Program-made: the position numbers and the translations under genes | The notes under the pieces: model-generated | Database searches by the model: none | What the model saw: only the letters and a program-made list of their open reading frames with translations | Told to the model about the DNA's origin: nothing | Shown here: one piece after another, positions 1-38,855 of the stretch | How the letters are laid out: each line of letters opens with the position of its first letter | Position numbering within the stretch: position 1 is the stretch's first letter | Source of the DNA: Helicobacter sp. MIT 99-5507 | GTDB taxonomy: Bacteria > Campylobacterota > Campylobacteria > Campylobacterales > Helicobacteraceae | Direction: 5' to 3' | Length of the DNA stretch: 64,000 nt | NCBI RefSeq assembly: GCF_003364295.1 | Contig: NZ_NXLO01000001.1 | Location: 186,001-250,000 of the forward strand

Positions 1-703
1 GTTGCAAATCAAATCCGCTACATAAAAACATTTCTTTATTTTTATCCAATAAAAAATTTGCAGCCATTAGTTTTGTTACAATTCCACCTGTGGCAAATTT
101 GCTACCTGCAACTTTATCACTTAAGATTCTATCTTGATTAATTTTATTGATATATTTTATCAGCTTTGCATCTTTGTTTTTTAGCGGATCTTTATCATAA
201 TATCCATATACATCACTCAATATCACAAGTATATTAGAATCAAAATAATGCGTTACATAGGCACTTAGCTGGTCATTATCACCAAAAGTTAAATCATTTT
301 GTGCGATAACATCGTTTTCATTTAGTATAGGTAGGATTCCATTTTCTAATAAAGTATCTATTGTCTCTTTTGTGCATTCTATCTTTTCTTTAGAATCAAA
401 TATAGTGCTTATGAATAATAATTGTGATGTTATGATATTGTATTTACTAAAAATTGAATTATATGCGTTCATAAGTAGTGGTTGCCCGATACTTGATAAT
501 GCTCGTTTGTTTGATAATTTGCTTTTATCAAGGTTGATTCTTGTATATCCGCTTGCAACTGCACCTGATGATACTAAAATAATATCAAATTTGCTTTTTA
601 GCTCTAATACAAAGTTACATATCTTTTCTATTCTTTTTATTTCTAAAATATCACCATTTGATAAGATAGAAGTTCCAATCTTAATAACTAATTTTTGTTT
701 CAT
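1..703 (-). CDS. proB: Glutamate 5-kinase, 3' end outside window
   Basis: ATP-dependent phosphorylation of L-glutamate, the first step of proline synthesis, in the cytoplasm. Read from an ATG at 701-703 toward base 1, the frame stays open for 234 codons and leaves the window. The N-terminus MKQKLVIKIGTSILS is the amino-acid-kinase phosphate loop. It is followed by VSSGAVASG, by LNENDVIAQNDLTFGDNDQLSA (substrate and Mg binding) and by KVAGSKFATGGIVTKL near the cut, all typical of ProB. So little of the normal length remains beyond the edge that a C-terminal PUA domain is unlikely, though this cannot be checked here. It follows the Crp/Fnr gene on the same strand after a 235-base gap, so it probably has its own promoter. 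The identification is secure; the C-terminus is unseen. Confidence 0.93.
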   Translation of the reverse strand, partial: MKQKLVIKIGTSILSNGDILEIKRIEKICNFVLELKSKFDIILVSSGAVASGYTRINLDKSKLSNKRALSSIGQPLLMNAYNSIFSKYNIITSQLLFISTIFDSKEKIECTKETIDTLLENGILPILNENDVIAQNDLTFGDNDQLSAYVTHYFDSNILVILSDVYGYYDKDPLKNKDAKLIKYINKINQDRILSDKVAGSKFATGGIVTKLMAANFLLDKNKEMFLCSGFDLQ

Positions 704-938
704 AAATAAAATTAATCCTAAATAGTTTAAAAATGAAATTTGGATTCTATCAAAACTAATATATTGTAACCTTAAAGTAATTTTAAGCTTATTTGTATAT
801 TTAAGATTTATTTAAGATATCTATAAGTTTTATTTCTTTTAGTATTGAAAACTGCAATTTTCAAACTTTTTTATAATTAAAAAGAAAGTGCAAATAAAAC
901 TTAAAGATTTAAGTTCAAAATATAATAAAATCTAGATT

Positions 939-1649
939 CTATTCAGCTTTTAAAATAGAATTTAGTTTATTTTCATTTATAACAACTAAATGCTTATTGA
1001 TATCTAGTCCTATTATATTTTCATCTTTTAATTTTTGAATATTTCTTGATAATGTTTCTTGGCTAATATTTAACATTTGAGAAATAAATTTTTTATTTAA
1101 ATCATTGAATATATTTGGTCTTTTACTAAGTATTGAAGCAAGTTTTGCTTTTGCATCATATATCATATTTATATTTATTATATTTTCTTGATCTTCTATT
1201 AGTTTATTTGCTCGATCTAACATATTTAGACTTAGATTTATATCTTCTTTTATCATTTCTTTAAAGCTTTCAGAATTTATGCTTAAAATCCTACAATTTT
1301 TTAAACAAAAAATATTATTGTATGAATATTTACTAATTAATGCTTGATAATTAATAAGCGGTGGATTCCCTTGATTGATGCAACTATTTGCATATATATT
1401 TATGATAACTTCATTATCAAATTTATTAATTTTATAGATTTTTACGCAACCATGTAATAAAAAATGAATGCTATCCATTGGATCATCTTCATAGTATAAA
1501 ATAGTATCTCTTGGATATTCTTTTACATGTGTTATACTAATGATTTTATCAAATGTTTCTTGAGATATATTTCTAAAATCTTCCATACTATCGATAGATT
1601 TTTTTAAATCTAGCAAACAAGATAACGGACAACTTTTTGACTTAAGCAT
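939..1649 (-). CDS. Crp/Fnr-family transcriptional regulator
   Basis: A 236-residue regulator with an N-terminal cyclic-nucleotide-binding-type beta barrel (about residues 25-120), a dimerisation helix and a C-terminal winged helix. The recognition-helix segment SQETLSRNIQKL has the E-x-x-S-R pattern of FNR, which suggests an FNR-like half-site preference. There are cysteines at the N-terminus (SCPLSC) and in the barrel (FCLKNC), but their spacing is not that of the FNR [4Fe-4S] cluster. The start is supported by GAGGG seven bases upstream of the ATG. The gene begins 12 bases after the gmd stop codon, so the two may be co-transcribed. Candidate targets in the window are the nap operon and the truncated haemoglobin gene; in Campylobacter a Crp/Fnr protein (NssR) controls the haemoglobins. 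Family assignment is firm, ligand and regulon are unknown. Confidence 0.85.
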   Translation of the reverse strand: MLKSKSCPLSCLLDLKKSIDSMEDFRNISQETFDKIISITHVKEYPRDTILYYEDDPMDSIHFLLHGCVKIYKINKFDNEVIINIYANSCINQGNPPLINYQALISKYSYNNIFCLKNCRILSINSESFKEMIKEDINLSLNMLDRANKLIEDQENIININMIYDAKAKLASILSKRPNIFNDLNKKFISQMLNISQETLSRNIQKLKDENIIGLDINKHLVVINENKLNSILKAE

Positions 1650-1661
1650 AAAATTACCCTC

Positions 1662-2771
1662 TTATTCAAAATAATGCATTATTTTATATCCACCATCATC
1701 TAAATATTTATCTTTTTGCATTAATTTCAAATCAGAATCTATCATATCATCAATCAATTTATAAAGATCATATTTTGGTTGCCATTTTAGTTTTTCTTTT
1801 GCTTTTGTAGGATCTCCAATGAGTAAATCTACTTCAGTTGGACGAAAATACCTAGGATCAACACACACTACTTCACTACCCTCTTTTACTTTATATTTAC
1901 CACTGCATCTTTTTATATATCCTTTTTCATCTACTCCACTACCACTCCACTCTATTTCTATATCAAGTTTATTGAAGGCTAATTCTACAAATTTTCTAAC
2001 TTCAGTTGTAATCCCTGTTGCTATTACAAAATCATCAGCTTCTTCTTGTTGTAATATTAAATACATCGCTCTTACATAATCTTTTGCATGCCCCCAGTCT
2101 CTTTTTGCACTCAAATTTCCTAAATAAAGCTTATTTTGTAATCCTAAAGCAATTTTACATACTGCTCTAGTAATCTTTCTAGTAACAAAAGTCTCCCCTC
2201 GAATAGGACTTTCATGATTAAATAAAATACCATTACAAGCAAACATATTATATGCTTCTCTATAATTTACAGTAATCCAATAAGCATATAGTTTTGCTAC
2301 AGCATAAGGACTTCTAGGATAAAATGGAGTTTTTTCATCTTGTGGCACTTTTTGCACTAAACCATATAATTCACTTGTTGATGCTTGATATATTTTTGTT
2401 TGATTAATTAATCCTAGAATCCTAATAGCCTCTAGCAATCTTAATGTGCCAAGCCCATCTGCATTTGCAGTGTATTCTGGTGTCTCAAAGCTAACTGCTA
2501 CATGACTCATTGCTGCTAGGTTATAAATCTCATCTGGTTGAACTTCTTGCACAATTCTAATTAGATTCGTAGAATCCACTAAATCACCATGATGTAATCT
2601 AAATCGCCCATCACCTTCATGCAGATCTTGATACAAATGATCGATTCTATCAGTGTTAAACAAAGAACTTCGTCTTTTTATTCCATGAACTTCATAACCA
2701 TTATCTAATAAAAATTCTGCTAGATATGCACCATCTTGTCCTGTTATACCAGTAATTAAGGCTTTTTTCAT
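1662..2771 (-). CDS. gmd: GDP-mannose 4,6-dehydratase
   Basis: Converts GDP-D-mannose to GDP-4-keto-6-deoxymannose, the precursor of GDP-L-fucose and related donors. The N-terminal Rossmann motif [11 protein letters not shown], the catalytic STSELYG with [10 protein letters not shown] (YxxxK), and the [19 protein letters not shown] segment are diagnostic. The open frame extends 12 codons further upstream, but the ATG at 2769-2771 has AGGAAT at the right distance and the protein then begins [11 protein letters not shown] as in the family. Length is 369 residues, normal for Gmd. The usual partner GDP-fucose synthetase (fcl) is not in the window, although a fucosyltransferase-type gene lies at 52487-53321. 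The partner may be encoded elsewhere or the product used otherwise. Confidence 0.95.
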
Positions 2772-2810
2772 AGTATTCCTTACGATATATTGAAGTATAT
2801 TAGACATAAT

Positions 2811-2847
2811 TTTGACATATTTAAGTAAAAAAAATATTTAAGTCAAA
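2811..2847. promoter_or_regulatory. Direct and inverted repeats upstream of napA, possible operator
   Basis: TTTGAC (2811-2816) and GTCAAA (2842-2847) form inverted ends. Between them ATATTTAAGT occurs twice (2817-2826 and 2834-2843) with a 17-base period. The element sits in the 226-base region between the divergent gmd and napA starts. It resembles a regulator-binding site, but the half-site spacing does not fit a Crp/Fnr box and no regulator can be named. Confidence 0.35.
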
Positions 2848-2854
2848 ATAATAT

Positions 2855-2873
2855 ATTGCTTACTTACAGCAAT
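2855..2873. promoter_or_regulatory. Inverted repeat upstream of napA
   Basis: ATTGCT and AGCAAT arms of six bases are separated by seven bases, about 125 bases before the napA start codon. It may be an operator or a small hairpin; no function can be assigned from sequence alone. Confidence 0.3.
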
Positions 2874-2997
2874 TTATTTATATAAAATTTAATATTTCCC
2901 TTATTGATTTAAAACAAAAATCTACATATCTTTTTATCTTAAGATTTTAAAGTTTAAAGCATTAAGGCTTTAAAATACTAATATGTGAAAGGATATT

Positions 2998-5757
2998 ATG
3001 TTAAGAAGAGACTTTTTAAAGAGCGCAGCTGTTGCCTCAGCTGCTGTTACTGCTGGAATGTCAGTCCCAAGTTCTTTAAGTGCAGCACAAGGTAGTGCTG
3101 AAAGTGGTTGGAAATGGGATAAGAGTGTTTGTAGATTTTGTGGAACTGGTTGTGGGATTATGGTCGCCACAAAAGATGGACAGATTGTTGCGGTGAAAGG
3201 TGATCCTGAAGCACCTGTAAATCGTGGGCTAAATTGTATAAAAGGATATTTTTGTGCAAAGATAATGTATGGAACAGATAGAATCACGCAGCCACTACTT
3301 AGATGTAATGATAAAGGCGAGTTTGATAAAAAAGGTAAGTTTAAACCAGTTAGCTGGAAAAGAGCCTTTGATGAGATGGAAAAACAATTCAAAAAAACCT
3401 ATAATGAATTGGGACCAACTGGCATTGGTGTATTTGGCTCTGGGCAATACACAATTCAAGAAGGATATGCAGCTGTAAAACTTATAAAAGGTGGTTTTAG
3501 GAGCAATAATATTGATCCAAATGCAAGGCATTGTATGGCAAGTGCTGTTGTTGCATTTATGGAAACTTTTGGTATAGATGAACCTGCTGGTTGTTATGAT
3601 GATATTGAATTAACAGATACAATCGTAACTTGGGGAGCAAATATGGCAGAAATGCACCCAATCTTATGGAGTCGTGTATCAAATAGAAAATTATCAAATC
3701 AAAATGTAAAAATTATAAATTTAAGCACATATACAAATAGAACATCAGATTTGGCTGATATTGAAATCATCTTTAAACCAAATACAGATTTAGCAATCTG
3801 GAATTTTATTGCACGAGAAATTATAAAAAGAGGTGCAGTAAATCAAAAATTTGTAAAAGATAATTGCGTATTTACTACAGGTTTTGTAAATATTGGCTAT
3901 GGAATGAGAAATAATCCAGATCATCCTAAGTTTAAACCAAGTGAAAAAGATACAGTTGCAAAAGAATTATCAAAAATTGTAAGCAAAAATGAGGGTGTTA
4001 GCTTGCAATATCTAGGCATTAAAGCTGGTGATAATATGAAAATGGATAATGCTGCAAAAGGTGGGAATCATTGGGAAATTAGTTTTGAAGATTTTAAAAC
4101 TGGATTAGAACCATATGATATTGATTTTGTAGCACAACTTGCTAAAGGGAATCCTGATGAAAGCATAGAATCTTTTAAAGAAAAACTTAAAACTCTTGCA
4201 GATTATTATATAGATAAAAATCGTAAAATCATAAGTTTCTGGACTATGGGAATGAATCAGCACCAAAGAGGAACTTGGGTAAATGAGCAAAGCTATATGG
4301 TGCATCTATTACTAGGAAAACAAAGCGTGCCAGGAAGTGGAGCATTTTCTTTGACAGGACAACCAAGTGCTTGTGGAACAGCAAGAGAAGTGGGAACTTT
4401 TGCTCATAGACTCCCAGCTGATATGGTAGTAGCAAATCCAAAACATAGAAGTATTACAGAAAAAATTTGGAAATTACCAGAAGGCACATTAAATAGCAAA
4501 ATTGGCTCACATTATGTAAAAATAATGCGTGATTTAGAAGATTCTAAGATTAAATGGATTTGGGTGCATGTAAATAATCCTTGGCATAACACTGCAAATG
4601 CTGAACACTGGATAAATGCAGCTAGAAATTTGGATAATTTTATTGTTGTTAGTGAATGTTATCCGGGTATTTCTGCAAAAGTTGCAGATTTGATTCTTCC
4701 AACAGCAATGATTTATGAAAAATGGGGAGCATATGGTAATGCTGAGAGAAGAACTCAACATTGGAAACAACAAGTATTACCACAAGGTAATGCAATGAGT
4801 GATACTTGGCAAATTATGGAATTTTCAAAACGTTTTAAAATAAAAGAAGTATGGGGTAAAGATTATAAGAATCTTGATTTAGTAAGTGTTTTAGATAAAG
4901 CAAAACAAATGGGTTACAATGAAGATACAACTTTATTTGAAGTAATGTTTGCAAATAGTGATGCTCGCAAGTTTGCAACCAATGATAAAATCATGGCAGG
5001 TGATATAAATACAGAAAGCATTGGGGATAGCAGAAATATTGTTGGTAGTGATGGTGAAGTATTTAAAGGATATGGATTCTTTGTTCAAAAATATTTATGG
5101 GAAGAATATAGACAATTTGGTCTAGGTCATGGACATGATTTAGCTGATTTTGATACTTATCATAAAGTTAGAGGTTTAAGATGGCCTGTTGTAGATGGCA
5201 AAGAGACACAATGGAGATTTAATAGCAAATACGACTTCTATGCTAAAAAAGAAGGAAGAGAATTTGCATTCTATGGAAATAAAGGAAAGGATATTATAAG
5301 CGGTAATCTAAAAGCTCCAAATACTAATAAAGTTAGCATTGATAATAAAGCTAAGATTTTCCTTAGACCATATATGGATCCTTGTGAAATGCCAGATAAT
5401 AATTATCCATTGTGGTTATGCACAGGTAGAGTATTGGAGCATTGGCATAGTGGAACAATGACTATGAGAGTTCCAGAGCTTTATCGTGCAGTGCCTGAAG
5501 CATTATGTTTTATGCATAATGATGATGCAGCAGCTCAAGGGTTAAAACAAGGTGATGTTATTTGGGTTGAAAGCAGAAGATCAAGAGTAAAAGTCAAAAT
5601 TGAAACAAGAGGTAGAAATAGACCACCAAAAGGATTGATTTATATACCTTGGTTTGATGAAAATGTGCTAATTAATAAAGTTTGTCTTGATGCTACTTGC
5701 CCAATATCCAAAGAGACTGATTTTAAAAAATGTGCAGTAAAAATATATAAGGCATAA
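2998..5757 (+). CDS. napA: Periplasmic nitrate reductase, catalytic subunit
   Basis: Reduces nitrate to nitrite in the periplasm using a bis-MGD molybdenum centre and one [4Fe-4S] cluster. The 919-residue product starts with a twin-arginine signal (MLRRDFLKS, then a hydrophobic stretch), so it is exported folded by Tat. The cluster ligands are C45, C48, C52 and C80 (CRFCGTGCG and NCIKGYF). The molybdenum ligand is the cysteine in NARHCMAS near residue 180. The C-terminal [16 protein letters not shown] region is the usual molybdopterin-binding segment. AAAGGA precedes the ATG. It is the first gene of a tightly packed operon in the order A-G-H-B-F-L-D typical of Campylobacterota, which lack napC and use NapGH to take electrons from menaquinol. 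Confidence 0.98.
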
Positions 5758-5767
5758 ATAAAATAAT

Positions 5768-6559
5768 ATGCAAGAAATAAACAAAAATAGACGCAATGCT
5801 ATACTAAAAACAGCACAAGGTATTGGAATCTTTGCCTTTAGCGGTCTTATATGGGGTGCATATGTATCTAAGGCAAAAGCATCTAGTTTTAGCCTTAGAC
5901 CACCTGGTGCAAAAGAAGAAAGTGAGTTTTTAAAGTTATGTATTAAATGTGGTAGATGTGTGACATTTTGCCCATTTGATACTTTAAAATTAGCTACTCC
6001 AGAAGATGATGTGCCAACAGGGACGCCATATTTTACACCAAGAAAGATTCCTTGTTATATGTGTGTTGATGTGCCATGTGTGCCTGTATGTCCTACAAAT
6101 GCTCTTGATGAAAAGCTACTAAACATAGTTGAAAATGACAAAGAGATGATGGATATAAGAAATGCTAAAATGGGTGTTGCAGTAGTTGATATAGAATCTT
6201 GTGTTGCTTATTGGGGGATTCAATGTGATGCTTGTTATAGAGCTTGTCCATTGATTGATGAAGCTATCAAGCTAGAATATAAACAAAATGATAGGACAAA
6301 TAAACACTCATATTTATTACCTGTTGTAGATAGCACAAAATGCACTGGGTGTGGTTTGTGTGAGCATGCTTGTATAACAAAAAAAGCAGCCATTATGGTA
6401 TTGCCTAGAGATAAGGCATTAGGTAGTGTAGATATAAACTATATTAAAGGCTGGGATAAAAGTGATGAAGCAAGATTAAATCAAACAGATAAAATTGCAC
6501 CAAAAAATAGTGATGATACTAATAGTGTTATAGACTATCTAAATAGCGGGGATTTATGA
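5768..6559 (+). CDS. napG: Ferredoxin-type protein of the nitrate reductase electron path
   Basis: A 263-residue periplasmic iron-sulfur protein that pairs with NapH to pass quinol electrons toward NapB/NapA. The N-terminus has a Tat-like start (KNRRNAILKTAQGIG) and a hydrophobic segment ending near AKAS. Four [4Fe-4S]-type cysteine groups follow: CIKCGRCVTFCPF, CYMCVDVPCVPVCP, CDACYRACP and CTGCGLCEHACI. It begins 10 bases after napA and its stop overlaps the napH start by four bases (ATGA), which points to translational coupling. Confidence 0.96.
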   Translation: MQEINKNRRNAILKTAQGIGIFAFSGLIWGAYVSKAKASSFSLRPPGAKEESEFLKLCIKCGRCVTFCPFDTLKLATPEDDVPTGTPYFTPRKIPCYMCVDVPCVPVCPTNALDEKLLNIVENDKEMMDIRNAKMGVAVVDIESCVAYWGIQCDACYRACPLIDEAIKLEYKQNDRTNKHSYLLPVVDSTKCTGCGLCEHACITKKAAIMVLPRDKALGSVDINYIKGWDKSDEARLNQTDKIAPKNSDDTNSVIDYLNSGDL

Positions 6560-7380
6560 TGAAAAAAATTAGGTTTTTGATTTTAAGGAGATTTATTCAA
6601 CTTGGAATCTTAGTTACATTTTTTGTTTGTAATTACTATGCAATAAATTTTTTTAATGGGAATCTAAATTCATCAAAAGTTTTTTGGATAATTCCTATGA
6701 GTGATCCTCTATCAATAGCACAGATTTTTATATCTGGTGCGATTAGCGGTATAGCTATCGGTAGTGAAGCTGTAATCGGACTATTTGTTGTATTAATTAT
6801 TTATGGTGTATTTTTTGGAAGAGGATATTGTGCTTTTGTGTGTCCTATGAATATGATTACAGATTTTGCTAATTTTTTAAGGAGAATATTTGAATTTAAT
6901 ACAAATAAAAAGCTAAATATTTCGCGTAAAAGCAAATATGGGGTATTGATACTAAGTTTAGTGCTTAGTTTTATACTTGCTGTCCCTGCATTTGATTTAA
7001 TAAGTCCTATATCTATGTTGCATCGTGGCATTGTATTTGGCATGGGTTTTGGAATCTTTGGGGTTTTGAGTGTATTTTTATTTGATTTGTTTTTTGTAAA
7101 AAATGGATTTTGTGGTTATATTTGTCCTCTTGGTGCGACTTATTCTTTGATTGGAAAATATAGTCTTCTTAGGGTTAAGCATAATAAAGATAAATGCACA
7201 AAATGTAATAAATGTATCATTATATGTCCAGAGCCTCAAGTATTAGATTTGATTGGAAAAAGAAGTGGAAGTATAAATAAGATTGATTGCATGAAATGTG
7301 CGAGATGTATTGAAGTGTGTGATGATAATGCACTTAAATATGGAATTTTTGATTTTAAGAATATGAGGAGTAAAAAATGA
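6556..7380 (+). CDS. napH: Membrane quinol dehydrogenase component of nitrate reductase
   Basis: An integral membrane protein of 274 residues that, with NapG, is thought to oxidise menaquinol for NapA in bacteria lacking NapC. Several hydrophobic helices are visible (about residues 10-30, 50-95, 125-150 and 155-185). Cytoplasmic CX3CP motifs lie in the loops (CAFVCPM and CGYICPL). Two [4Fe-4S] motifs close the protein: CTKCNKCIIICP and CMKCARCIEVC. Two adjacent ATG codons start the frame and either could be used. It overlaps napG and napB by four bases each. Confidence 0.96.
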   Translation: MMKKIRFLILRRFIQLGILVTFFVCNYYAINFFNGNLNSSKVFWIIPMSDPLSIAQIFISGAISGIAIGSEAVIGLFVVLIIYGVFFGRGYCAFVCPMNMITDFANFLRRIFEFNTNKKLNISRKSKYGVLILSLVLSFILAVPAFDLISPISMLHRGIVFGMGFGIFGVLSVFLFDLFFVKNGFCGYICPLGATYSLIGKYSLLRVKHNKDKCTKCNKCIIICPEPQVLDLIGKRSGSINKIDCMKCARCIEVCDDNALKYGIFDFKNMRSKK

Positions 7381-7898
7381 AATATATGATTAATATAGTA
7401 GCTATAGTGCTACTTTTTATTGGATGTGCAAGTGATAATGGAAATAAAATGTCACTTGATGAGAGTGAGTTTGGATTAAGGAGTGCATCTTTGTATAGTG
7501 AAAATGTAGATCTAAGAGATTTTGCATATTCTACTACTCCAGCCGGAGAGAGCACTAATATTGAAAGAGCATATGAAAATGCACCACCTATGATACCTCA
7601 TGATGTAGAAGGTATGCTTGATATTACAAGAGATTACAATGCTTGTATTGATTGTCATAGTAGGCAAAATGCACCTCTTATGAATGCTACACCTGTGCCA
7701 TTATCACATACTTATGATACATTTAGTGATAAGCAAAAAGATAGCATTGTAGATTCTAGATATAATTGCAACTTATGCCATACACCACAAGCAAATGTAA
7801 GCCCTTTGGTTGGAAATAATTTTAAACCAGAGTTTAGAAGTAGTGATGGGAAAAGTAAATCAAACTTATTAGAAGTTTTAGATGAAGGTGTTAAATAA
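7377..7898 (+). CDS. napB: Diheme cytochrome c subunit of periplasmic nitrate reductase
   Basis: The small electron-transfer subunit that feeds NapA. The 173-residue protein has an N-terminal hydrophobic signal that contains LFIGC, so it may be a lipoprotein. Two haem c sites are present, CIDCH and CNLCH, in the usual NapB spacing, and a further ligand histidine sits in PLSHTY between them. It overlaps napH by four bases and napF by 17 bases. Confidence 0.95.
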   Translation: MKYMINIVAIVLLFIGCASDNGNKMSLDESEFGLRSASLYSENVDLRDFAYSTTPAGESTNIERAYENAPPMIPHDVEGMLDITRDYNACIDCHSRQNAPLMNATPVPLSHTYDTFSDKQKDSIVDSRYNCNLCHTPQANVSPLVGNNFKPEFRSSDGKSKSNLLEVLDEGVK

Positions 7899-8346
7899 AA
7901 AGTTGATAAATAGATTTAAAAAAAACCTTCCGCTTCCATATTGCAAAGATTCTAATATACTAGAATCTTGCAAAGAATGCGATAATAACCCATGTATTTC
8001 TATATGTCCTACAAATATTATTATAAAAGAAGATGATAGAATCTATTTAGATTTTAGAGATAATGGCTGTATATTTTGCAAGAGATGTGCAGAAGTGTGC
8101 AAAAGCGATTCGCTTGGATTGCTTGATTTGGATTTAGAAAACTATATAAATGCAAAAATAAATCTAAATGAAGCAAAATGTCTAGCTTGGAATAAAACAA
8201 TATGCTCTTATTGTGCTGATGTCTGTGATAGCAAGAGTATTAAATTTAATGCTATGCTTTATCCAGAGATTTTGCAATCTTGCACTAAGTGTGGAATGTG
8301 TCAAAGTGTATGTCCAAACGAAGCAATAACTTTTAGAGGTGTATAA
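7882..8346 (+). CDS. napF: Cytoplasmic ferredoxin-type Nap assembly protein
   Basis: NapF is a cytoplasmic iron-sulfur protein thought to help mature NapA before export. The 154-residue product has no signal peptide. It has cysteine groups CKECDNNPCISICP, CIFCKRCAEVC, CSYCADVC and CTKCGMCQSVCP, consistent with several [4Fe-4S] clusters. The ATG lies inside the 3' end of napB and the stop shares a base with the napL start, so all these genes are probably translated as one coupled unit. Confidence 0.93.
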   Translation: MKVLNKKLINRFKKNLPLPYCKDSNILESCKECDNNPCISICPTNIIIKEDDRIYLDFRDNGCIFCKRCAEVCKSDSLGLLDLDLENYINAKINLNEAKCLAWNKTICSYCADVCDSKSIKFNAMLYPEILQSCTKCGMCQSVCPNEAITFRGV

Positions 8347-18928: not shown

Positions 18929-20634
18929 ATGAAAAATATTGCTAGAGGGGCTGCTTTTGTTATCTTGAATATGGGGATAATAAGTGCTACAGATTTGACA
19001 TTAGAAGGTATAATATCTAATGAAGTCAAAATAACAACACAATATAATACACTCACAAACTACGCTACTTTTACAAATACAGGCACTAGTATCTATGTAG
19101 AATCTGGGGGGGGGTTTATAACTTTATAAACTTTGGTAATACATATACATTTTGGACAAGTCATAATGGTGGTGGTAATACAAATATATATAATTATAGA
19201 TATATAAAAAGTGGTTCAAATGGTAATTTTGCACTTAGTGGTGCAAGCATAACAATACATGTCTTTCATCTAAAAATCAATCAAGATGCAAATGCTTTTA
19301 ATAATACCAAAGGAGATTTGACAAGCTATGAGGAATCGATTCGTAATTCACATATTTTAATAAGTGGTAGTAATGATGGAAAACTAACTATGGCTAATGA
19401 TGGCAAAATCATACTTAGCTTTGGTGATGGATTTGAACTAGGACAAAACTATAATAGCAAATATATATTTTTAGATTGTGATGGAAATGGTGGAAATAAT
19501 GGCAGTAGTGGAAATAATGATGTCAAAAATTGTGCTCTTAAAAATAATGGCAAAGATGTAATCCCATTTCTTACTACTTATAATAATGGACTTTTTTCTA
19601 TAAAAACTAATGGTGGTGATTTTAGTATAAACATAAATGATGATGAATACGCTAGTATAAATACTATATATAAATCTGCATTATTATCTATGAATACCTA
19701 TAAAACAATCATAAATAATATTATAAATAATTCAAAAACTTTTACAAATGAAAATAAAAATACAACAACAATAAACAATATAAATGCAAGAAGTGATAGA
19801 AGGAGAGCACTTAGTAGAAATATAGAATCTGAAATTACAAATGATAAGAAAGATTCTACTAATTATATGTTTTTCTTGCCACTTGTATCATATCAAAGCA
19901 TAAATGGTGGTGGTGGATATAATGGATTAAACTATGGCTTTGTAGGTGGATATAATGCAGCAATAAATAATAATTTAGCAGGAATTCATTTTGGTTTTAC
20001 CTATGGTGGAATAGAAAGTAAAAGTAGCAATTTAATACAGCTAAAAAATACGAGTTATTCAGCACTTTTAGGATTCCACTATAAATATAATTTTAATTAT
20101 AATCTATATATTTCTACTAGATTAGAGGCATTCTATTATATAAATAATCTAAAAGGATATTTTAATAATATAAATTATGAAACACTAAAACCTACGACTT
20201 TTGCCCCAAGTATAAATTTTGCATTTGGTAAAAAATGGCATTTTTATATGAATAAAATTGGCGTAGAAGGTGGATTTGACTATAGTGCAATGATAAATTC
20301 AAGCTTAGATAGACTTGGTGAAAGTTATGCTAAAAACTTACTAAATCTCGCATATCTTGATATAAATGGCAATTATGAATTAGCATTGAAATATTTTAAA
20401 TTTCATTTTTTACTTGGAGCAAAAACATTAATTACACCATATCCAAAAGCTACACTAAATACATCTAATGGATATAAAATAAATATATATGAAAACCGAA
20501 TAAGTGCCTATACATCAATAGGGACAACATATCAACTAAATGATATCATAGCTTTGGAGCTGAATTATTTAGGAATATATGGTGATAGAATGATTAATCA
20601 TAGTGGATTTTTTAATACAAAAATATGGTGGTAG
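18929..20634 (+). CDS. Autotransporter-like outer-membrane protein, phase-variable, assembled OFF
   Basis: In the assembled phase the gene stops at 19127-19129 after 66 residues. With G10 (or G7) at the tract the frame continues to 20634 and gives 568 residues. The reading between the tract and the long downstream frame is open throughout, so only the tract breaks the gene. An N-terminal signal-like segment is followed by a beta-rich, Asn/Gly-rich passenger. The last 260 residues or so form an aromatic-rich beta-barrel (YGFVGGYNAAINNNLAGIHFG, then alternating strands) that ends in FFNTKIWW with a terminal aromatic residue, as autotransporter barrels do. It resembles the VacA/autotransporter class of Helicobacter in layout. 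The surface location is inferred and the function unknown. Confidence 0.78.
19106..19114 (+). repeat. G9 tract, phase switch in the autotransporter-like gene
   Basis: Nine G after codon 59 (GTAGAATCT-G9-TTTATA). G9 leads to a stop at 19129; G10 or G7 joins it in frame to the rest of the gene (VESGGGVYNFINFG). Confidence 0.9.
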
Positions 20635-20636
20635 AA

Positions 20637-20661
20637 ACTAGAATCTTTTAAAGATTCTAGT
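20637..20661. terminator. Perfect palindrome between convergent genes, probable two-way terminator
   Basis: ACTAGAATCTTT and AAAGATTCTAGT are complementary twelve-base arms around one T. The element lies in the 38-base gap between two convergent genes. It lacks a T run after the stem, so its strength is uncertain. The arms contain the window's frequent word AGAATCT/AGATTCT. Confidence 0.6.
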
Positions 20662-20672
20662 ATTCAAAGATA

Positions 20673-21218
20673 TTATTGTTTTAGTGCTTCTAGTGCGTAT
20701 TTTTCACCAAGTTCAAAAGCTTTTTTATTTAATTCGGCAACTTTTGCAGGGACTTTTGAGAGCATAGTATCAAACACTATATCTCTATCAACACATTTTG
20801 TAAGTGTTATGGTGATCGCAAGTGCTACGACTGATTGTGTGACGGCATTGCCCACCTCATCTTTTGCTATTGTAATAATTGGAATAGAATAAATCTTGTA
20901 TTTCTTTAAATCTTCCATAGATGGCTTTACTAGATTTGATTCAACTACAACAATAGAACCATCTCTTAAATCAACTTTGAATTGATCATAACTAATTTGT
21001 GCAGTAGATAGCATAAAACCTACACTTTGTGCATATGGATATAATATTTCATTATCATCAAGTATGATATCAACTTTTGTAGGTCCGCCACGCACTTGAC
21101 TTGTGTAAGTAGCAGCTTTTACCCCATAACCATTATCTCTAATCTTTGCTTCTGCTAGAATCTCCCCAGCAAGCAATACACCCTGCCCTCCTACACCTGT
21201 AAAGCGAAGCTCTGTCAT
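20673..21218 (-). CDS. oorC: 2-oxoglutarate:acceptor oxidoreductase, gamma subunit
   Basis: Part of the four-subunit enzyme that converts 2-oxoglutarate to succinyl-CoA with reduction of an electron carrier, replacing 2-oxoglutarate dehydrogenase in this group. The 181-residue protein starts TELRFTGVGGQGVLLAGEIL, the typical gamma-subunit opening, and has YTSQVRGGPTKVDIILDD. It is the last gene of oorDABC and overlaps oorB by one base. Confidence 0.95.
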   Translation of the reverse strand: MTELRFTGVGGQGVLLAGEILAEAKIRDNGYGVKAATYTSQVRGGPTKVDIILDDNEILYPYAQSVGFMLSTAQISYDQFKVDLRDGSIVVVESNLVKPSMEDLKKYKIYSIPIITIAKDEVGNAVTQSVVALAITITLTKCVDRDIVFDTMLSKVPAKVAELNKKAFELGEKYALEALKQ

Positions 21219-38030: not shown

Positions 38031-38855
38031 TTATCCTTGATTTATTATCTCATTATAACAATCTTGAGTATTTTTACCTGTTAGCTTTGATAATATTTTT
38101 GCTTTAATTTTAGGTGGAATAGAAAGTGAGATAATATCTTCTATGCCTAAATATTGCTTTTTTGTATCATTAGAACTTGTATTTATTACAATAACCCACT
38201 CACCATTTAAATTTGCTACCCTAATTTTTTCTAATACATCTTTAATGCTTCCAAAATAAAACTTTTCAAATGTTTTTGTGATTTCTTTTGCTAGAAAAAT
38301 TTCTCTATTTTGTTCTATATCATTTAATATTTGCATAGAATCTAAGATTCTCTTTGGCGATTCAAAACATATAATGATATTATCTTCACTAAGAATCTTG
38401 TGAAATAATGATATTTTATCTTGTTTTTTATGTGGCAAAAATCCAATAAATTTAAAATTTTTATCACCAAAACCACTTAATGCAAATGCACTAAGCACGG
38501 AACTACAACCAGGAATTATGGTATATGGGATATTATATTTTTGCATATTTTTTACTATTTTGTATCCAGGATCACTAATGCAAGGCATGCCCGCATCGCT
38601 TATTAGTGCAATATTATTATTTTGATAAAAACTAGAATCTAGAGATTCTACCCTAGAATCTTCATTGTGAGAATGTAAAGAAATATATATAAAATCTATA
38701 TTTTTCAATAAATTTCTAGAATGAAGGATTGATATTAGTTTTTTTGCGACCCTAGTATCTTCACATAAAATATAATTACAAATCTCTATAGTTTCTAATG
38801 CTCTAATAGTAATATCAGCAATATTACCTATTGGAGTAGCAATTAAATAAAGCAA
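38031..38855 (-). CDS. rsmI: 16S rRNA (cytidine-1402 2'-O)-methyltransferase
   Basis: RsmI/YraL, a tetrapyrrole-methylase-fold enzyme. Typical blocks are LYLIATPIGNIADITIRALE at the N-terminus, LCEDTRVAKKLI, LISDAGMPCISDPGYKIV and FESPKRI. It has 274 residues. It is three bases from rpmE and four from the SpoU gene, forming a small translation-related cluster. Confidence 0.95.
   Translation of the reverse strand: MLYLIATPIGNIADITIRALETIEICNYILCEDTRVAKKLISILHSRNLLKNIDFIYISLHSHNEDSRVESLDSSFYQNNNIALISDAGMPCISDPGYKIVKNMQKYNIPYTIIPGCSSVLSAFALSGFGDKNFKFIGFLPHKKQDKISLFHKILSEDNIIICFESPKRILDSMQILNDIEQNREIFLAKEITKTFEKFYFGSIKDVLEKIRVANLNGEWVIVINTSSNDTKKQYLGIEDIISLSIPPKIKAKILSKLTGKNTQDCYNEIINQG

Follow-up and report, generated by a model that had tools for sequence, protein, structure and literature searches.

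AGAATCT in large excess in non-gastric Helicobacteraceae: probable dialects of a DNA uptake sequence

The heptamer AGAATCT and its complement AGATTCT were found in large excess in the genome investigated here, which is that of a relative of intestinal Helicobacter, and in most Helicobacteraceae outside one genus, which has gastric members. On balance, we consider it rather probable from the sequence evidence that the word constitutes new, so far unreported uptake-sequence dialects of this family, which were lost in the gastric species. By analogy, the copies probably behave like watermarks by which DNA of the own kind is recognised and taken up. No earlier report of the word AGAATCT was found among the matches listed in a search of the open-licence literature. 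In the window, i.e. the whole stretch of 64,000 nt that was analysed, AGAATCT occurred 72 times and AGATTCT 81 times; these 153 copies were spread throughout, in genic and intergenic sequence, compared with 21.3 copies (approximately 0.16 per 480 bp) expected from an order-2 Markov model. The genome from which the window derives (G000; 1,534,953 bp) contained 4065 copies (2028 + 2037), and the reversed control word was found 442 times (230 + 212). An earlier note on this DNA had described the word as over-represented on both strands, in genes as well as in gaps, and had proposed a genome-wide count and codon shuffles as checks; its description was confirmed, and the scale of the excess is larger than it had supposed.

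The influence of codon usage was determined in 464 kb of G000, consisting of the window and 20 stretches with 447 predicted genes. Coding sequence contained 462 + 547 = 1009 copies of the two forms, while 30 synonymous-codon shuffles gave means of 93.7 + 130.4 (approximately 224) and maxima of 112 and 160. Equal counts in such shuffles were the outcome that the earlier note had named as speaking against its claim, and the shuffles did not reach the observed counts. Coding copies were present in all three frames and on both coding strands, and density in the gaps was no lower than in the genes (2.9 per kb intergenic, 2.5 per kb genic). Although the Asp-Ser and Glu-Ser frames were the most frequent, as a codon effect would have it, the number of copies was 4.5 times that of the shuffles, the excess appeared in every frame and intergenic density was not reduced, so that codon usage, composition or chance are left with a negligible probability. 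An origin in codon usage or composition was therefore rejected on the basis of the synonymous-codon shuffles and the Markov expectation, in agreement with the earlier view that codon preference is insufficient. The excess of AGAATCT/AGATTCT is genome-wide and goes beyond both the codon and the composition nulls.

Distances between copies followed an exponential law in the 464 kb of G000, and the longest motif-free gap, 3.2 kb, consisted mostly of 23S and 5S rRNA genes. A cluster of copies in the window lies within the following gene:

38031..38855, minus strand: rsmI, 16S rRNA (cytidine(1402)-2'-O)-methyltransferase (TIGR00096, 236.4 bits; cut-off 167.9), carrying the cluster
38337..38343, plus strand: cluster copy 1, AGAATCT, within rsmI
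38345..38351, minus strand: cluster copy 2, AGATTCT, inverted relative to copy 1
38392..38398, plus strand: cluster copy 3, AGAATCT
38634..38640, plus strand: cluster copy 4, AGAATCT
38643..38649, minus strand: cluster copy 5, AGATTCT, inverted relative to copies 4 and 6
38655..38661, plus strand: cluster copy 6, AGAATCT

The earlier count of six copies in 38281-38760 was correct, while the start given for the cluster, 38336, is one base off (38337). At least six copies were found in 2 of 953 tiles of 480 bp, with 1.4 expected at the genome rate. The rsmI cluster was therefore rejected as a special feature, the gaps being exponential; it is an ordinary Poisson cluster.

A palindrome containing the motif, also pointed out previously, proved to be real and is situated between convergent genes:

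19318-20634, plus strand: left neighbour gene of the palindrome
20637..20661, no strand assigned: perfect inverted motif pair ACTAGAATCT TTTAA AGATTCTAGT
20673-21218, minus strand: oorC, right neighbour of the palindrome

The inverted pair folds as a hairpin (-13.5 kcal/mol, z = -3.8 against shuffles) and possibly serves as a two-way terminator.

Long runs of G or C are typical of phase-variable genes. The window contained 11 runs of 9-11 G or C, far above expectation at 28% GC:

Runs of G or C, start positions: 11905, 19106, 44703, 46488, 47643, 50519, 52028, 54298, 56328, 57558 and 59678

To describe the true form of the word, its variants and flanks were counted. In G000, forms with G instead of A at position 1 were enriched 4.7-fold and forms with C instead of T at position 7 3.0-fold, and T was favoured immediately 5′ of the word. 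GACTC/GAGTC was depleted in coding sequence (54 versus 214 in the shuffles). Since GACTC/GAGTC is depleted and the purine and pyrimidine ends are enriched, the enriched word is approximately T-R-GAATC-Y, i.e. GAWTC in a purine/pyrimidine frame, and not GANTC at large; the earlier reading of GAATC and GATTC as GANTC forms has to be narrowed to GAWTC. Depletion was also observed for several one-letter neighbours (observed/expected 0.26 for AGGATCT, 0.38 for AGACTCT and AGAGTCT, 0.50 for AGCATCT), while neighbours changed at positions 2, 5 and 6 were near expectation (0.71-1.16).

Intergenic flanks were asymmetric in several species. T preceded 144 of 153 copies and A followed 111 of 153 in G042 (p = 4e-7), and the respective figures for G064 were 65 and 34 of 91 (p = 7e-6). 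GGAATCT outnumbered AGAATCC by 21 to 5 in G103 (p = 0.002), and AGAATCG was found 15 times in G120, compared with three times for its mirror CGAATCT (p = 0.008). In intergenic sequence of G000 the asymmetry was not significant (94 versus 78 of 152, p = 0.08), and GGAATCT (23) and AGAATCC (24) were equally frequent there. Exclusion of a palindrome by asymmetry consequently fails in G000, and the case rests on the other genomes: the word departs from perfect dyad symmetry of the HIP1 type in G042, G064, G103 and G120, the departure not being significant in G000. The base following the core also varied. G120 uses AGAATCG (136 copies versus 33 in shuffles of its coding sequence), G118 has RGAATC followed by T, C, G or A (20 kb only) and G093 has AGAATC followed by T or A. 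The sampled genera thus share a common RGAATC core and differ in the next base; congruence of these dialects with phylogeny is partly shown, with few genomes per genus.

The distribution of the word was surveyed in 121 genomes of the family, 34 of genus g2 and 87 others, using the ratio of motif to control word. This ratio exceeded 1.5 in 83 of the 87 non-g2 genomes and in none of the 34 g2 genomes. The highest count was that of G042, with 16,584 copies in approximately 2.7 Mb, i.e. about one per 163 bp. Named species were identified by a HemE scan, and whole-genome counts were obtained for 19 of its 80 genomes; for members of the family, these counts matched those of the survey. An excess was evident in H. 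bilis (6860 copies, control 404), H. trogontum (4027, control 515), H. marmotae, H. pullorum, H. mesocricetorum, H. pametensis, H. sp. 11-8110 and Candidatus H. avicola. Among the same 19 named genomes the word was not in excess in H. cetorum, H. bizzozeronii, H. mehlei and H. labacensis, all of genus g2, nor in C. jejuni, C. coli, C. volucris, C. troglodytis and Sulfurospirillum. The designation of g2 as gastric derives from these four named members of its 34 genomes; H. pylori presumably belongs to g2 as well. Genus g11 (G104-G110), including Helicobacter sp. 11S02596-1 and 12S02634-8, showed little of the motif, with ratios of 1.07-3.0; in the two named species the word was near or below twice the control, and G104 had 35 copies where 25.5 were expected. 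In the HemE tree, which is based on one gene (22 of 80 loci plus G000 and G001), the gastric species were placed among the motif-positive ones. This position suits a loss of the word, but it comes from a single gene, and the gastric species are split in two in the tree.

Outside the family, an order sample of 298 genomes was inspected, 29 of Helicobacteraceae and 269 others. Among the latter, G121, of a neighbouring family, stood out with 1412 copies versus 455 (approximately 0.83 per kb), the next highest density, judged by eye, being approximately 0.42 per kb (G194). In several other families the ratio was likewise above 2, for instance in three genomes of family f23 (2.3-3.3), in G172 of f6 (595 versus 121) and in G123 of f4 (448 versus 19); these are raw ratios at 0.2-0.4 copies per kb, and in many cases the control word was rare. 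A mild excess may thus be present in a few other families of the order. Among the 25 matches listed in a plasmid search there were no Helicobacter plasmids.

Pilus-type machinery was distributed in a similar manner. T2SSF (PF00482) was detected in 86 of the 87 non-g2 genomes, the exception being G043, which is 67% complete, and in none of the 34 g2 genomes; N_methyl pilins (E ≤ 0.001) were detected in 73 of 87 and in none of 34, respectively. Among the 19 named genomes, only H. cetorum, H. bizzozeronii, H. mehlei and H. labacensis had no T2SSF. G000 carries a cluster of secretin, ATPase and T2SSF, ComEC, and 12 N_methyl pilin loci above the cut-off. T2SSF was also retained in g11, where five of seven genomes had four matches, and is present in Campylobacter and Sulfurospirillum. 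Because g11 has little of the motif and the latter two have no excess of it, the machinery alone does not predict the word, and since one event may account for the absence of both from g2, the association between motif and machinery is statistically weak.

Nine of the ten pilin loci that were fetched from G000 (L249-L253 and L255-L258, outside the window) were near-identical and encode MshA-like type IV pilins. These loci are dispersed in the genome; their ends are constant, while the middle part varies. L254 is truncated. In four relatives of genus g1, the number of pilin loci was 6-11 per genome. To judge by their sequences, the MshA-like pilins of G000 look like a set for antigenic variation.

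The arrangement of the copies was then considered by strand, by spacing and between relatives. In ten stretches of the complete genome G064, the two replication strands carried 250 and 231 copies (p = 0.41), strand being taken from the GC skew, which for two of these stretches was close to zero; no replication-strand skew was thus observed in this one complete genome. Neighbouring copies 10-30 bp apart were inverted in 120 of 203 pairs in G042, in 30 of 37 in G064, in 43 of 70 in G000 (p = 0.07) and in six of 11 in G103, the figures for the last two genomes not being significant. When the four genomes were pooled, 61 of 79 intergenic pairs and 213 of 339 elsewhere were inverted, an excess that comes from G042 and G064. 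In G042 it extended to distances of 31-100 bp (145 of 232), some pairs being tandemly repeated, while pooled pairs 101-300 bp apart were even (416 to 389). In each of the four genomes, the density of copies was greatest between convergent genes, the counts being small (24, 14, 19 and 11 sites). Between relatives at 82-88% identity, the word was retained more often than composition-matched control words in all seven pairs compared, which are not independent; in one of them the word was kept at 16 of 21 sites and the controls at 260 of 974. At identities of at least 93% retention was above the controls in only five of seven pairs, and below approximately 78% the comparison was mixed and positions had largely turned over.

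The stretch L228-L231 of G064 (1.52-1.60 Mb) covers a VirB/VirD4 conjugation-type island and has about two thirds of the usual density, i.e. 128 copies in 80 kb versus 573 in 240 kb elsewhere, approximately 12 kb of the 80 preceding the island. In G055, the segment 220-280 kb showed no clear drop in motif density. Islands as a motif-free control thus proved weak, as the island stretch of G064 still carries the word.

Several explanations other than uptake were weighed. The earlier note had suggested, besides an uptake-type sequence, a methylation-linked word. According to this proposal, which parallels the one made for HIP1 in cyanobacteria, a solitary or restriction-linked GANTC methyltransferase of the HinfI/CcrM type would select flank-specific sites or create them via repair. 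The core of the word coincides with GANTC, for which an excerpt of PMC4705304 gives methylation at 99.7% of 20,546 sites in H. typhlonius; the word comes close to a palindrome, with no significant asymmetry in G000; and motif-positive genomes with the enzyme had higher ratios (median 13.3 versus 5.7, p = 0.008). This difference, however, disappeared within genera (p = 0.23). Full-length matches of the CcrM/HinfI type, defined by a threshold of at least 380 bits chosen in this analysis, were found in 19 of the 34 motif-negative g2 genomes and in only 11 of the 87 others, leaving 76 of these 87 without one; G000 has fragments only, and none of the five g4 genomes reached the threshold, yet their ratios were 7-16. 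The depletion of GACTC/GAGTC and the asymmetric flanks in several species likewise argue against this proposal. The small orphan methylase L006 of G000 was disfavoured as the cause since it is missing from genomes with strong enrichment, G042 and G064 among them. G000 carries further PF01555 methylases, the comparison made here comprising the CcrM/HinfI type and L006. As judged from these sequences, a GANTC methylase is not supported as the general cause of the word, and we regard methylation as an unlikely explanation. A recombination or segregation signal resembling Chi or KOPS, the strand-exchange signal of the earlier note, would agree with a short and frequent word, but the even distribution over the replication strands of G064 and the 72 and 81 copies on the strands of the window make it very improbable.

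The word could also be the binding site of a chromosomal protein that acts in nucleoid packing, segregation, replication or repair and has no role in uptake. The high density of the word, in G042 about one copy per 163 bp, the Poisson spacing and the retention of T2SSF by g11 with hardly any word all fit such a site. Dialects, inverted pairs and absence from exactly the genus that has no pilus would not be specially expected of it, however, and a replication-strand skew was not observed, so that we assign this explanation a low probability. Biased mutation or repair, for instance by a VSP-like process or gene conversion, might turn near-misses into the word, which would then have no function. 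The depletion of some one-letter neighbours agrees with this, but neighbours changed at positions 2, 5 and 6 remain near expectation, the word is retained more than control words at 82-88% identity, and an asymmetric target of seven letters with dialects would be unusual for a repair enzyme; this explanation appears quite improbable. Among the three readings given in the earlier note, uptake is thus best supported, while strand exchange and, as a general cause, methylation were not supported.

A second methylase class of approximately 205-237 bits, which we take to be of the GATC type, is widespread in the family. At approximately 275,028-275,757 of contig C1, G000 contains a broken CcrM-related methylase gene (L003, L004), presumably of the DpnA/GATC type. 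In the 464 kb of G000, five-letter words with GATC, GTAC or GGCC, as well as TCAGA/TCTGA, were approximately 3-12 times rarer than expected from the order-2 Markov model. This pattern suggests that restriction sites are avoided.

The uptake reading is favoured by an excess that is not due to codons, by the lack of a strand skew in one genome, by the dialects, by the flank asymmetry in several species, by an excess of inverted pairs at short distance in G042 and G064 among four genomes, by retention at 82-88% identity and by the joint absence of word, T2SSF and N_methyl pilins in g2. Counted against it are the near-palindromic form of the word, its core coinciding with GANTC, the higher ratios of enzyme holders, G000 with neither a significant asymmetry nor a significant inverted excess, the island that carries the word, and retention in only five of seven pairs at identities of at least 93%. 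If the word does mark DNA for uptake, a putative DNA receptor on a competence machine resembling a type IV pilus or type II secretion system would bind it on external DNA, and the preference of this receptor would favour uptake of DNA of the own kind in non-gastric Helicobacteraceae. Repeated transformation and recombination would then spread the word wherever the function of protein and RNA tolerates it, and its form around the RGAATC core would settle slightly differently in each genus. In the gastric Helicobacter, loss of the pilus machinery would have entailed loss of the word. Receptor binding, a bias in uptake, this bias as the cause of the accumulation, and loss in the gastric species rather than their never having had the word are the steps that we infer.

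A wider proposal is made only tentatively: the Helicobacteraceae may join the bacterial families with a sequence-type uptake code as the third of them, their code being denser than the others and having genus dialects, and the gastric species may have lost this code with the pilus machine, which might explain sequence-blind uptake and free recombination in H. pylori. If this were true, uptake sequences would have arisen in another phylum besides the known families, and a natural series for the loss of a code would be available, from carriers of the word via g11, which has T2SSF and hardly any word, to the gastric species with neither. It would also suggest a reason why DNA uptake in H. pylori is unselective, and addition of the word to DNA might ease the transformation of non-gastric Helicobacter.

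The closest resemblance is to the DUS of the Neisseriaceae. As far as the excerpted text of PMC3630211 describes them, DUS dialects share a core, and inverted pairs of the uptake word are linked to terminators in Neisseria. Both systems consist of short words in thousands of copies, with dialects that share an invariant core and carriers that have type IV pilus machinery; inverted pairs of the word occur in both as well, linked to terminators in Neisseria and clear here in two of four genomes only. The Helicobacteraceae word differs in its core (RGAATC instead of CTG), in being nearly palindromic, in its higher density (reaching about one per 163 bp) and in belonging to another phylum; in addition, uptake bias and a ComP-like receptor belong to DUS, whereas the Helicobacteraceae word is known from sequence alone. 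The USS of the Pasteurellaceae, in the parts of PMC7811141 and PMC12616744 at hand, is likewise a short uptake word present genome-wide, although the word itself is another one and the present case again comes from genome sequences. Within the same bacterial order, C. jejuni takes up DNA by a T2S/T4P-type machine that requires methylated RAATTY, and H. pylori takes up phage lambda DNA (both according to an excerpt of PMC10046745). In C. jejuni a short word on the DNA decides uptake, as is proposed here, but the mark there is methylation, whereas in Helicobacteraceae the conspicuous feature is the large excess of the word itself, and 76 of the 87 non-g2 genomes have no full-length CcrM/HinfI-type match. 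The cyanobacterial HIP1, as presented in the consulted portion of PMC4390886, is similar in its very high frequency and in that its core is a methylase target, the word described here being near-palindromic; HIP1, however, is a true palindrome with orphan methylases, while the flanks of the Helicobacteraceae word are asymmetric in several species and the methylase does not track the word.
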